From Anaerolineales bacterium (GTDB taxonomy: Bacteria; Chloroflexota; Anaerolineae; Anaerolineales; UBA11858), in assembly GCA_028278545.1 (NCBI GenBank), contig JANQED010000115.1, positions 124,001 through 188,000 of the forward strand: a stretch of DNA of 64,000 bases, written 5' to 3'. A program made the position numbers and the translations under genes. Below the pieces are notes generated by a model. It had not been told where the DNA came from. It ran no database searches and was given only the letters and a program-made list of their open reading frames with translations. Position 1 is the first letter of the stretch, and each line of letters starts with the position of its first letter. Of this stretch, positions 34,213 to 38,700 are shown piece by piece.

Positions 34213-36723
34213 TTAATCTTTTTGATTCAAATCATTGGGTGCCCAATTTATGAGTACCCTGGTTCCTCGACCTGGGGCCGAGTCAAACCTCAATTCCGCT
34301 CCGATTAACGCCGCTCGCTCGAACATCCCAGCAATGCCATAGTGCTTGTCTGCCAATAGCAAGTTGAAATCCAGTTGATTCGGATTGGAGAAGCCAATTC
34401 CATCATCTTCTACGCGGAGTTGCACTCCTTCAGGGGTGCAGCGACCTTCAATGTGGATGGAGCTGGCCTGGGCATGTCGTAGGGCATTTTCGCATGCTTG
34501 TTGAACGATACGGTAAAGGTGTGCTTCGACCATTGAATCGGGTCGGGCGCCTGATGATGTTATATCTGTCTGTATACTCAAAGCATGTTCAGTTCGTGCC
34601 GAGAGTTCATCGGCTAACTCTTCCAGCGCAGGAGCTAACCCATAATTGAGCATGGCTGGTCGCAGCCCGCTAATCATCTGCCGCAGACGAGCAGTGATGC
34701 TTTGGAAGCCTTCCTCGAAGGTCGGCGCAGCTTCTTCCTGATCTGTTTTTAAAGATAAAACAGCCAATTGGTTGAGTACATCGTCATGCAAATCTCGTGC
34801 CAGGTTGGCGCGTTCTTGTTCGTGCCGTTCGACGTTAGCCTGATGGAGCGCGCGCAGGCGTTCGGACTGCTCGATGTTGACCAGGGCGATGGCGGTTTGG
34901 TTCGCTAAGGTTTCTAATAGCGAAATCTCTGGTTGAGCGTAAAAGTCATCGGGATCTCGCCGGCCAAACAGCCACAATCCAATCGTTTTACTGCTAACCT
35001 GAAGGGGCAGGATCAATCGAATCCATGAGTAAGTTTCTGGAATTTTAGTTGTCGATTCGGGATTTCTTCCAGCCTGTGATAGCAAGGCAGAGATGTCAGT
35101 TTCGTTCGGAATCTGTGCGTCCATTACTCCCAGAGTAGTAAACTGCTTCATGCCGCCTGCATCTATTTGCAGCAGAGCCGATTGACGTACCAAAAGGCTG
35201 GGGAGGAGTTCTTCTCGTAACAATCGCACAAGACTCTTGTGATCCAGGCTGGTTGTGATTCGATCCCAATAGGATTTCAAGAGTTCTTCCGGGGGAAGCT
35301 GGATTCCCAAGATACGTTGATCTATAAAGCGTTGGAAAGGGGCAAATCCGATAGCCGTGATCATACTGGCCAATAACGCGGCTCCGATTCCAATGATTGC
35401 AGTCTCTCCAGGGAAATCAAGCAGGCTATCTGAGATAATGATTCCCACAGAAAGGATCAGTCCTACAAAAACGGCAAAAAGATAAAGGGATAGTAGACGG
35501 TTGGCACGAATCTCGATTTCTCCGGTACGAGGGCTGAGAGAAACCGTTTCCCCAGTCAAGGCCGGCAGTGCCAGAAATGGGGAGAAACCGGTGATTGCAC
35601 TGATGGCTGCAATCAGTGAGACGATTATCCCTGTCGCAAGTGTGGACTCACTCAAATTTCCTCTGAAATTTGCCAAAGTTAGAAGTGCAACAGTGATGCT
35701 TCCGCCAATGATAACGGCCAGATACATTCTTGTCAGTCGTTTTACACGTTGATCAATTTGCTGGAATTGTCGACGGTAGGCTACAAAGAAATAGGCCCCA
35801 GGAAGAGCAGGAAAAGCTAGAAAGGCGCCTCCTTGAATGAATGCTGGCGGTGTTCGGCCAGATAGGGTAGCAACGCTGATTCCTAAAGGAGGTATCAAGA
35901 CAAACGTTGCCACGAGAGCAAGTAGCCCAATATCTCGGCGGAGATCTTTTTTCAAGACGATATGGAATATAAGGAGAACGATGCTACCAATTATGGAAAG
36001 CAGAATACCCCCATAATAAGTAGATATTGGGAGAACCAAGAACCATTCTAAGAGCGCCAAAGTGATCCCAGCTAGATATACTATTCTCCAAACAACAGGA
36101 GGCATTCGCCCTAAAGGCTGGGGAAATATCCAGTGGAGATGAAGGTAGACTGGCAGGCAAAGCCACACTGTTGATCGAAGCACAATGGCGCTCTGCCAGA
36201 TGTGCCAATGAGATGGACCGCTACCAGCAGCCAGCCAAATGGAAGTGAGGTAATTGAAAGAGATCAACAAAATCCATTTTGTATCTTTGGGGCGGATGAA
36301 AAGCAACGTCGCAGTTCCAGCCATCCAGAATACGTAGGGTAGCCACCAAATCCCGTTGATGCGTTGTAATACTTGATTTTGATCAGGACCTGGGTGAACC
36401 CAGTCAATGGTTACTTGCTTTCCACTCCGTTCAACTATTAAGGCAACGCTTTGCCCAGCTTCTGTATCATCAAAAAGCGTTTGGCGCAAATCCTTGTTGA
36501 ACTCGTCTATAAAAGTTGACCCAACCTTGATTAAACGATCACCTGTCTGTAGTGAATCATGATGAGGCCTAACGTAAATCTCGTATACTATCCCATTCGT
36601 AAATTCAAATCCAATGTAAGGGGTTTGAAAAAACTTGGCGTATGAAAATACAGCTAGCAGGAGCAATATGAGCCAGGGAAATACTTTCTCAATAATTGCT
36701 TGACGGAATGTCGCTTGTTTCAA
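34213..36723 (-). CDS. Polytopic sensor histidine kinase with extracytoplasmic PDZ-like segment, GAF and HisKA_3/HATPase (ComP-like)
   Basis: TM1, then YEIYVRPHHDSLQTGDRLIKVGSTFI (PDZ-like), many TM segments, GAF, RANLARDLHDDVLNQLAVLSLK (HisKA_3 H-box), ENALRHAQAS N-box. Confidence 0.9.
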   Translation of the reverse strand: MKQATFRQAIIEKVFPWLILLLLAVFSYAKFFQTPYIGFEFTNGIVYEIYVRPHHDSLQTGDRLIKVGSTFIDEFNKDLRQTLFDDTEAGQSVALIVERSGKQVTIDWVHPGPDQNQVLQRINGIWWLPYVFWMAGTATLLFIRPKDTKWILLISFNYLTSIWLAAGSGPSHWHIWQSAIVLRSTVWLCLPVYLHLHWIFPQPLGRMPPVVWRIVYLAGITLALLEWFLVLPISTYYGGILLSIIGSIVLLIFHIVLKKDLRRDIGLLALVATFVLIPPLGISVATLSGRTPPAFIQGGAFLAFPALPGAYFFVAYRRQFQQIDQRVKRLTRMYLAVIIGGSITVALLTLANFRGNLSESTLATGIIVSLIAAISAITGFSPFLALPALTGETVSLSPRTGEIEIRANRLLSLYLFAVFVGLILSVGIIISDSLLDFPGETAIIGIGAALLASMITAIGFAPFQRFIDQRILGIQLPPEELLKSYWDRITTSLDHKSLVRLLREELLPSLLVRQSALLQIDAGGMKQFTTLGVMDAQIPNETDISALLSQAGRNPESTTKIPETYSWIRLILPLQVSSKTIGLWLFGRRDPDDFYAQPEISLLETLANQTAIALVNIEQSERLRALHQANVERHEQERANLARDLHDDVLNQLAVLSLKTDQEEAAPTFEEGFQSITARLRQMISGLRPAMLNYGLAPALEELADELSARTEHALSIQTDITSSGARPDSMVEAHLYRIVQQACENALRHAQASSIHIEGRCTPEGVQLRVEDDGIGFSNPNQLDFNLLLADKHYGIAGMFERAALIGAELRFDSAPGRGTRVLINWAPNDLNQKD

Positions 36724-36831
36724 TTCCTACTCCTGGAGAGATAGCTATTGGAAGGAGGTGGTTCAATTATAGCCTACAATATTTCATGCCTATTACCCGA
36801 TAACCAATTCTTATTACTAAAGGAGAATACA

Positions 36832-37056: not shown

Positions 37057-38025
37057 ATGGATATTTATGAAGAAGCTCGTAGCACTCTGCTAGAGATGTC
37101 AATTGTTAAATCTTGGGCAGAAATGCAAAACGCGGTTGAGAAAATGGCCGCAAGACGGCCGCGTGATTGGCAACTGCCCATGCTGGCCTGCGTGGCGGTG
37201 GGCGGCAATAGTAAACAGGCTGTCCCAGCCTCATCAGCAATTGGTTGTATGCAGATGAGTATCATTCTTGTTGATGACATGCTGGACGAGGACCCACGCG
37301 GGGAATACCATCATATTGGTGTTGGAGCAGCATCCAACTTGGCATCTGCACTGCAAGCTGTTGGAATGGAAGTTATTTCTCAAAGCGGTGCCAGTATGGA
37401 CGTGAAGCTAGGCGCTCTTCGTTGCCTAAACCAAATGATGTTGACCACAGCCTTAGGTCAACATTTGGATGCGCAAAATCCTCAGGATGAAGAGACTTAC
37501 TGGGAGCTTGTGCGCACCAAAAGTTCCCCCTTTTTTGGTGCCGCCCTCTACGTCGGCGCGTTACTGGGGCGGGCTGATCCCGAAACCGCCGCCCAGATCG
37601 ATAAGTTCGGTCAGCTCTATGGTGAGATGATCCAGATTCATGACGATTTGAACGACAGCATGGAAACACCGGCCAACCCAGATTGGACTCAGGGGCGGGC
37701 GCCGCTGCCGATCTTATTTGCCCAGGTTGTGGATCATCCAGATAGGGAACGTTTTCTCCAATTGCGTCGGGATATCGCCGATCCAGATGCCTTGACTGAA
37801 GCGCAGACGATTCTGATCCGCTGTGGCGCGGTCAGTTACTGCATCGATCAATTGCTGCGCAGGGTTCAAGCTGCGCGAGAGATTCTGGATAAGCTATCAT
37901 TAGTCCACCCTGAAAAACTCGAAGGGTTAATCGCCGATGTCGTAGACCCGGTGACGAACCTATTTGCAGAGATTGGCGTTGAACAGCCCGAGGCGTTTTT
38001 AAAACCCTCAAAACCTGTTACCTAA
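37057..38025 (+). CDS. Isoprenyl-diphosphate-synthase-like protein (ComQ-like candidate)
   Basis: Aspartate-rich motifs DDMLDED (DDxxD) and HDDLNDS (DDxND) in a trans-prenyltransferase-like protein. Confidence 0.85.
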   Translation: MDIYEEARSTLLEMSIVKSWAEMQNAVEKMAARRPRDWQLPMLACVAVGGNSKQAVPASSAIGCMQMSIILVDDMLDEDPRGEYHHIGVGAASNLASALQAVGMEVISQSGASMDVKLGALRCLNQMMLTTALGQHLDAQNPQDEETYWELVRTKSSPFFGAALYVGALLGRADPETAAQIDKFGQLYGEMIQIHDDLNDSMETPANPDWTQGRAPLPILFAQVVDHPDRERFLQLRRDIADPDALTEAQTILIRCGAVSYCIDQLLRRVQAAREILDKLSLVHPEKLEGLIADVVDPVTNLFAEIGVEQPEAFLKPSKPVT

Positions 38026-38700
38026 ATCTACGATAGGTGTCTCTGGTGTGATCAGCCCCAATTGCCGCGCTTTGGCAATAGCCGACGTCCGACTGCGAAC
38101 GTTGAGTCGCAGGTAAGCTTCTGAAAGCAAATTTCGCATGGTAGAGTTTGCAATCCCTAAACGGTTTGCAAGCTCGGCTGTGGTGGCGTCCGGATGAGAA
38201 GCGCACAGTGATAATGCTTCCAGTTGTCGCCGTGTGGGAGTGGATTCCTTGGGGATTTTCTTGAACAACTGTTGATAGGCCTGTTGACTTAGGTGAATGC
38301 CGCCTTGGTCAACAACCTCGATGACACTTCCTAGATTCTGAACAGTCTCTCTGTCATCCTTGAAAATATAGCCGCTGGCTCCAGCCTCCATCACGGCTTT
38401 GATGAGTGACGGTTGGTTGTGCATAGAGATGATCAAGATGCTTAGGTCAGGGTATTTTTGAAGCACTCTGGGGATCAAATGTAGGATGGGATATGGATTG
38501 AGGTTGTCTGGTGAAGTCGGCACCTGCACATCTAAGATCAACACATCGGTCGGGTGACGGGTTAGAAGGGGTTCGATATCCTTCCCAAAATTCGCGGTGG
38601 TAACCACCTCGATTTCAGGATTCTTATTCAGCCGGTACAGATAGCCATCGATGATGCCTTGATGGTCATCCAGGATCGTCACACGAATTTTTGGAGACAT
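38008..38700 (-). CDS. NarL/ComA-type response regulator
   Basis: VTILDDHQGIIDG, VLILDVQVP receiver; LuxR-type HTH TAELANRLGIANSTMRNLLSEAYLRLNVRSRTSAI. Confidence 0.88.
   Translation of the reverse strand: MSPKIRVTILDDHQGIIDGYLYRLNKNPEIEVVTTANFGKDIEPLLTRHPTDVLILDVQVPTSPDNLNPYPILHLIPRVLQKYPDLSILIISMHNQPSLIKAVMEAGASGYIFKDDRETVQNLGSVIEVVDQGGIHLSQQAYQQLFKKIPKESTPTRRQLEALSLCASHPDATTAELANRLGIANSTMRNLLSEAYLRLNVRSRTSAIAKARQLGLITPETPIVDLGNRF

Follow-up and report, generated by a model that had tools for sequence, protein, structure and literature searches.

A ComQXPA-like locus of Anaerolineales predicted to make and sense a tryptophan-prenylated peptide

Introduction

The ComQXPA quorum-sensing system of Bacillus consists of the isoprenyl transferase ComQ, the pre-pheromone ComX of about 55 aa that is modified on a Trp residue, the HisKA_3 kinase ComP, and the NarL-type regulator ComA. 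Here, a four-gene locus with similar functions, P-X-Q-A, was analyzed in a stretch of 64,000 nt, hereafter the window, from the genome of an Anaerolineales bacterium (UBA11858; GCA_028278545.1, contig JANQED010000115.1, positions 124,001–188,000, forward strand).

The C-terminus is the most variable part of ComX, and a 2014 census reported no comQXPA-like locus outside Firmicutes (PMC4008528). The receptor BaComP carries a PDZ domain at residues 30–108 (PMC9620489). For PalP-PalX-PalQ of Paenibacillus, prenylation of the C-terminal Trp was demonstrated in vitro; PalQ keeps the aspartates of the second aspartate-rich motif (SARM), and a double mutant of them was still active (PMC10853753). Another relevant enzyme is the farnesyltransferase Ord1 (PDB 9v4g), which acts on free Trp according to a review.

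Four-gene locus in the window

The locus comprises the following genes.

34213–36723, minus strand: P, ComP-like sensor histidine kinase of 836 aa with a TTG start (Pfam, hydropathy, AlphaFold2 (AF2) model, profile homology)
36832–36984, plus strand: X, precursor peptide of 50 aa, MQAFYSDLISKSKKNVAYQRAMVRLTQVSLSQMAALESAPSWEPWDASAS (alignment, homologues, ratio of nonsynonymous to synonymous substitution rates (dN/dS), background control)
37057–38025, plus strand: Q, enzyme of 322 aa with the trans-isoprenyl-diphosphate-synthase (trans-IDS) fold, predicted tryptophan peptide prenyltransferase (PF00348, alignment, motif table, trees, AF2, Foldseek)
38008–38700, minus strand: A, NarL/LuxR-type response regulator convergent with Q (Pfam, conserved receiver and helix-turn-helix (HTH) residues, identity to ComA)

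The genes are arranged P- X+ Q+ A-, with the 3' ends of Q and A overlapping by 18 nt. An earlier note, made from the DNA letters alone, had proposed these four genes and the rearranged order with P divergent from X-Q and A convergent. The open reading frames (ORFs), together with Pfam for P, Q, and A, confirmed all four genes and their strands, and the order recurs in most related loci. Chance cannot account for this layout, by far.

We read the locus as a tryptophan-prenylated peptide pheromone system like Bacillus ComQXPA, in which Q prenylates a C-terminal Trp of X, P senses the product, and A responds; the probability of this reading was estimated at about 0.87. It draws on sequence features, namely the layout, its conservation, the coding status of X, the invariance of its Trp residues, the loss of isopentenyl diphosphate (IPP)-binding motifs in Q, and the sensor homology of P. 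From there we infer the chemistry, the Trp used, the chain length, export, processing, signalling, and the regulon.

X would be produced as a 50-aa precursor. Q would bind an allylic prenyl diphosphate via its first aspartate-rich motif (FARM) and, instead of adding it to IPP, would move the prenyl group to the indole of W45 and/or W42 of X. The modified tail may then be cleaved and released, and the PDZ/polytopic sensor of P would detect it at the cell surface. P would autophosphorylate and hand the phosphate to A, which, judged by its family, would control transcription.

Conservation of the module

A scan of GTDB genomes with Q yielded 36 loci, nearly all from Chloroflexota/Anaerolineae and one from Acidobacteria. 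In nearly all loci of this set with enough flank, the kinase and the enzyme, usually with the regulator, were adjacent. Q was found in 49 of 400 sampled genomes of the window's order, in a patchy pattern over 27 of 130 genera. It was present in 7 of 399 genomes of the wider phylum, at a stricter single-sequence threshold, and in 5 of 297 genomes of the Acidobacteria phylum. Furthermore, in 35 additional stretches of the order, of which 19 were new to the first set, a small ORF with W.{0,2}W near its C-terminus always lay just upstream of the enzyme.

The neighbourhood search proposed in the earlier note thus recovered the P-X-Q(-A) module in about 55 distinct loci, mainly of Anaerolineae and a few of Acidobacteriota. 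This figure is an approximate count of distinct contigs, with L075–L109 partly duplicating the contigs of L011–L046, and several contigs of metagenome-assembled genomes (MAGs) stop inside a locus. The arrangement P- X+ Q+ A- was in the majority and a collinear X+ Q+ P+ in the minority. The note had also considered that the kinase and regulator might not accompany the synthase elsewhere; they did so in nearly all loci. This near-complete co-occurrence of X, Q, and P supports the predicted pheromone function.

At least ten loci lacked X-Q and retained adjacent P and A (L131–L133, L135, and L137–L142, in genomes G028, G336, G592, G408, G568, G736, G648, G620, G508, and G719, respectively). L134 (G704) retained a 112-aa enzyme remnant and the 22-nt P-X intergenic element described below. 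In L103 (G687) and L106 (G740), the enzyme had an in-frame TAA or was split into frames, and X and P appeared intact, as in decaying copies. These receiver-only and decayed loci suggest that sending was lost before receiving.

Kinase P and regulator A

Pfam assigned HisKA_3 (26 bits) and HATPase_c (42 bits) to P, both above cut-off. Its architecture is a first transmembrane segment (TM1), a PDZ-like extracytoplasmic domain, a polytopic membrane region, a GAF-like segment, HisKA_3, and HATPase_c.

36394–36612, minus strand: PDZ-like domain at about residues 38–110 of P, bounded by TM1 and TM2 (AF2 strands at 39–109, weak Foldseek matches, position as in BaComP)

The AF2 model of residues 1–400 (predicted local distance difference test (pLDDT) score 89.5) contained TM1, the strand-rich domain at 39–109, and then membrane helices. 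In this model, the topology and the PDZ position agree with those published for ComP (PMC9620489). Foldseek searches with the sensor returned no match with E below 0.001; GPCRs and PDZ proteins gave only weak partial matches, including PDZ-containing HtrA/DegQ/YlbL chains with E above 0.1.

The first 400 residues were the best-conserved part of P in many loci. Aligned by hhalign with the ComP sensor of Anoxybacillus, the one intact ComP on the Bacillota side of the comparison, the P sensor scored 65 over 329 columns, against at most 31.5 for 29 unrelated polytopic proteins and less than 20 for shuffled ComP. A hidden Markov model (HMM) of 47 sensors matched the same ComP sensor at 63.7 bits, and at 100 bits with 23 distant sensors added. 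As the E-values came from small test sets, the bit scores against the controls are the evidence. Because 38 polytopic control proteins reached at most 1 bit, the sensor half of P (TM, PDZ, and polytopic membrane region) is judged homologous to that of ComP and can be assigned to the ComP type.

An LHD motif was present at the His box of nearly all divergent orthologues. The window P contains ARDLHDDVLNQL, though the His-box pattern first picks another stretch.

A matched Response_reg at 44.6 bits and GerE at 23.5 bits, the latter exactly at the cut-off. The acidic and phospho-acceptor residues of the receiver and the HTH were conserved among its orthologues. A shares 22% identity with ComA of a B. 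velezensis plasmid and, like ComA, is a NarL-type regulator.

The homology of the P sensor to ComP, a pheromone receptor, also bears on a different role for the product. Q could prenylate X to give a secreted antimicrobial or surface-active member of the ribosomally synthesised and post-translationally modified peptides (RiPPs), with P/A sensing envelope stress, or the product itself for immunity or autoinduction. In favour of this role, prenylated RiPPs of the PalX type have been discussed as secondary metabolites, and prenylated peptides can act on membranes (PMC13290415); P/A could also be autoinducing, as are regulators of lantibiotic clusters. The module, however, holds no conserved immunity or export genes, and, as in ComQX, one small gene each encodes the precursor and the enzyme. 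The retention of P and A after loss of X-Q is also a better fit to sensing than to self-immunity. We regard the RiPP role as unlikely.

Precursor peptide X

X is preceded by the Shine-Dalgarno (SD) sequence AAAGGAG and ends in ...SWEPWDASAS.

36955–36966, plus strand: W42-E-P-W45 motif of X, predicted prenylation site(s)

When 32 peptides were aligned, W42 and W45 (WxxW) were the only invariant columns, and F4 was near-invariant within the MQxFYxxL start. A profile search found 44 free-standing homologues in three subfamilies, which are characterized by MQxFYxxL, MTIEEFxxLL...ALRKLT, and MHIHDFYSKLTSGTEGG. Conservation of the small ORF, on which the earlier note had made its proposal depend, was therefore confirmed. 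In the MHIHDFYSKLTSGTEGG subfamily, identity was 88% in the leader and 38% in the part running from WxxW to the C-terminus (45 pairs). A conserved leader with a variable tail would be expected of a precursor with pherotype-like diversity. In length and in a Trp near the C-terminus, X lies in the range of ComQXPA precursors (about 50–75 aa). Five residues follow W45 in the window X, unlike the terminal acceptor Trp of PalXQP; the second W is terminal in several relatives (L015, L018, L037, and L041).

A small W..W ORF preceded the enzyme in nearly every locus. As a background control, W..W ORFs with an SD were sought upstream of 246 control genes drawn from the same loci; three of the four matches were X genes themselves, so the true background is about one. 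Close X pairs showed dN/dS of 0.06–0.46 over about 50–68 codons, and X therefore evolves as a coding sequence and is translated.

Pfam and NCBIfam gave no convincing family match for the window X. A search with Pfam ComX (PF05952) found nothing in the genome or in any of 14 control genomes; this null is uninformative alone because the controls were equally empty.

Two peptides from the Acidobacteria side have only one Trp, within a terminal VYWF or AYWY. The Acidobacteria locus L038/L129 contains two different X genes (3905–4102 and 5532–5723 in L038 coordinates), the second directly before the kinase.

Enzyme Q

Q matched PF00348 at 72 bits and contains both aspartate-rich motifs.

37273–37287, plus strand: FARM, DDMLD (D73–D77) of Q; D73, D74, and D77 invariant in 30 sequences
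37633–37656, plus strand: SARM (DDLND) with upstream Gln, Q193-I-H-D-D-L-N-D200 of Q; Q193, D196, D197, and D200 invariant in 30 sequences

Motifs and trees were compared among 30 Q orthologues, 12 ComQ, and 17 canonical synthases. The ComQ were real records reached via plasmid comQXPA loci. In the trans-IDS superfamily, the basic motifs GK[RS]xRP and RRG, the latter following the FARM, bind IPP. Both were absent from 30/30 Q and 12/12 ComQ and present in 17/17 canonical synthases. The GKxxxxDL segment that follows the SARM in canonical synthases is also missing from Q. GA..Y near the C-terminus is common to Q and ComQ and occurred in 1/17 canonical synthases. Since the IPP-binding basic motifs are absent, Q should not elongate prenyl chains. 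The Gln before the SARM was rejected as a diagnostic feature because all 17 canonical synthases have it.

The trees placed Q, ComQ, and the synthases in separate clades, with support of 100/100 for Q and of 98/95 and 99/96 for ComQ. The earlier note had named a grouping with housekeeping GGPPS/FPPS as evidence against its proposal; this grouping was not seen, and Q formed its own clade with GKxRP and RRG lost. The genome also holds three other, canonical synthases elsewhere. Because of these synthases and the missing IPP-binding motifs, Q is predicted not to be the housekeeping enzyme.

The same results bear on the explanation that Q makes GGPP or another prenyl diphosphate for carotenoids, quinones, or lipids, that P/A regulate this pathway, and that the small ORF is incidental. 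Databases and the fold name Q a polyprenyl synthetase or geranylgeranyl pyrophosphate synthase, the latter being the usual name in a family of at least 1372 protein clusters at 90% identity. GGPP synthases are among its best structural matches, and its SARM is kept. The fold does not separate the functions, however, because GGPP synthases and Ord1 scored alike in Foldseek. The universal loss of the IPP-binding motifs among the orthologues and the three canonical synthases both speak against this explanation. Purifying selection acts on the small ORF, which is present in nearly every locus, and the flanks examined held no conserved isoprenoid-pathway genes. We consider isoprenoid synthesis by Q very unlikely.

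Comparison with known systems

Like ComQXPA, the locus combines a small Trp-containing precursor with a variable C-terminus, an adjacent trans-IDS-fold enzyme without IPP-binding motifs, a polytopic kinase with an N-terminal PDZ loop and a homologous sensor, and a NarL-type regulator. Unlike ComQXPA, it belongs to another phylum, its X is an unrelated WxxW family, and its Q has an intact SARM, which is degraded in ComQ. P and A lie on the strand opposite to X and Q in the order P-X-Q-A, in contrast to the collinear Q-X-P-A. A PF05952 match, ComQ-clade membership, a pseudo-SARM, and collinear order were all tested and none was found; the system therefore works like ComQXPA and is not a strict member of it.

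A comQXPA locus recently transferred from Bacillota would explain the same four functions and the homologous sensor domains. Such strict orthology is extremely unlikely, given the order P- X+ Q+ A-, a Q outside the ComQ clade in a large radiation of its own, and an X that fails PF05952.

With PalX-PalQ-PalP of Paenibacillus alvei (PMC10853753), the locus shares a clustered kinase, precursor, and divergent trans-IDS-like enzyme. The acceptor Trp at the C-terminus and the kept SARM aspartates are further likenesses, PalQ being compared by its published description. The window X differs from PalX in lacking the NHLP leader and in having two Trp with residues after them, and the window locus includes a regulator. 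The free-tryptophan enzyme Ord1 has the fold of Q, is among its best sequence and structure matches, and also has a Gln upstream of the SARM. Q adjoins a precursor peptide and a two-component system, neither of which is implied for Ord1. Canonical GGPPS, FPPS, and OPPS share the fold, FARM, and SARM with Q; unlike them, Q has no GGKRxRP, RRG, or GKxxxxDL after the SARM.

The ComQXPA-type reading of the earlier note was thus retained for the four functions and the ComP-homologous sensor and given up for X and Q, which by sequence belong to neither the ComX nor the ComQ family. Its scope outside Firmicutes was widened, as the module is widespread in Anaerolineae and reaches Acidobacteriota. It had called the system undescribed, and the open-access literature, with subscription papers and preprints outside reach, contained no report of a comQXPA-like system in Chloroflexota.

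Several results weigh against the pheromone reading. None of the 32 X peptides matched PF05952, whereas the three Bacillales ComX controls did (24.6, 37.1, and 72.4 bits; cut-off 25, one therefore just below it). The SARM pattern Q..DD..D was intact in 30/30 Q and in 0/12 ComQ. In an AF2 model of an X-linker-Q read-through, with TAG read as Gln, the enzyme reached pLDDT of about 98, and X stayed below 50 and undocked, which speaks neither way on binding. HisKA_3 was below cut-off in some P orthologues. The collinear-clade kinase of L036 (6711–9578) has a HisKA (PF00512) core rather than HisKA_3. No exporter or protease linked to the module was identified, and the 3.95-Mb MAG has a completeness of 84.9%, so that its incompleteness also counts here. 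The collinear clade has the same sensor as the window P (E 3.6e-77), and the HisKA core of L036 points to a swap of the output half. What follows the enzyme is thus the sensor and not the type of catalytic core.

Second class of enzymes and peptides

The order also holds weaker relatives of the sensor (E 1e-24 to 1e-45). Of the 23 such loci read, 18 have a much more divergent enzyme, Q', next to the sensor kinase.

L143–L155, L157–L159, L162, and L163: second-class loci with a ComP-type sensor kinase and Q', most with an NHLP-like precursor ending in Trp

In most of these loci, a peptide of 60–86 aa with an NHLP-like leader and a C-terminal Trp was found upstream of Q'. The ends included YLGWR, YARWG, HRGWM, ENWR, and AEPWVI. 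Against NF038399 of the NHLP clan, the peptides scored 20–39 bits (cut-off 40). The class resembles PalXQP of Paenibacillus in its kinase, NHLP-like Trp-ending peptide, and divergent enzyme. One receptor type thus tracks peptides that end in Trp and enzymes derived from synthases, even where the leaders are unrelated.

Q and Q' fall on one side of a 96/91 branch. A rooting inside the synthases would unite all predicted peptide prenyltransferases; the tree, unrooted and with long branches, falls short of proving this. It is compatible with a shared origin of Q, Q', and ComQ separate from the synthases.

In mostly uncultured Chloroflexota and a few Acidobacteriota, the locus very probably makes and senses a lipid-tagged tryptophan peptide, a type of signalling so far described for Bacillus and relatives alone. 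A broader view, which we hold to be fairly probable, is that a much wider signalling class exists in Chloroflexota, Acidobacteriota, and Bacillota, with ComQXPA as one of its branches. ComP-type PDZ/polytopic sensors would be general receptors for tryptophan-prenylated peptides from at least three unrelated precursor families (ComX, WxxW, and NHLP-leader), made with several divergent synthase-derived prenyltransferases. Many lineages would keep the receiver after loss of X-Q, as eavesdroppers or signal-blind remnants.

If so, prenylated-Trp peptide signalling would not be a Bacillus speciality and would be widespread in phyla for which hardly any cell-to-cell signals are known. Anaerolineae, filamentous bacteria that abound in sediments and bioreactors and are difficult to culture, would gain their first candidate pheromones. 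More than 1000 proteins named geranylgeranyl pyrophosphate synthase would be reassigned, new Trp-specific prenyltransferases would be gained, and the receptor profile could be used to find further prenylated-peptide systems.

Intergenic features and neighbouring tRNA

Two features lie between the genes of the locus.

36752–36773, plus strand: conserved 22-nt element AAGGAGGTGGTTCAATTATAGC between P and X, read as GCTATAAT on the minus strand, with AAGGAGGTG conserved
37018–37041, plus strand: intercistronic stem-loop CTGGCCGAGA-GAGA-TCTCGGCCAG followed by TTTTAT, between X and Q (21-locus hairpin test)

Of 24 divergent loci, 22 carried AAGGAGGTG with no more than one mismatch (shuffle rate 1.1%). 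Among 19 genomes, 8 had the full element at this locus, and there was one additional match with two mismatches. One of its strands matches the 16S anti-SD complement, that is, it is complementary to the 16S 3' end; the other form, GCTATAAT, is read on the kinase strand. The full motif was rejected as a regulon box because it occurs essentially once per genome and is all but private to the locus.

All 21 loci tested had a strong hairpin in the short X-Q gap; z was at or below -3.4 in 20 of them, and the hairpin sequence was not conserved. The hairpin is probably an attenuator or a stabiliser, and an attenuator yielding more X than Q is plausible. Rfam matches to sroB and isrP at this position were below the gathering score and were taken as chance matches to a terminator-like hairpin.

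The sole tRNA of the window, tRNA-Asp(GTC), lies at 33578–33652, about 560 bp downstream of the end of the P gene.

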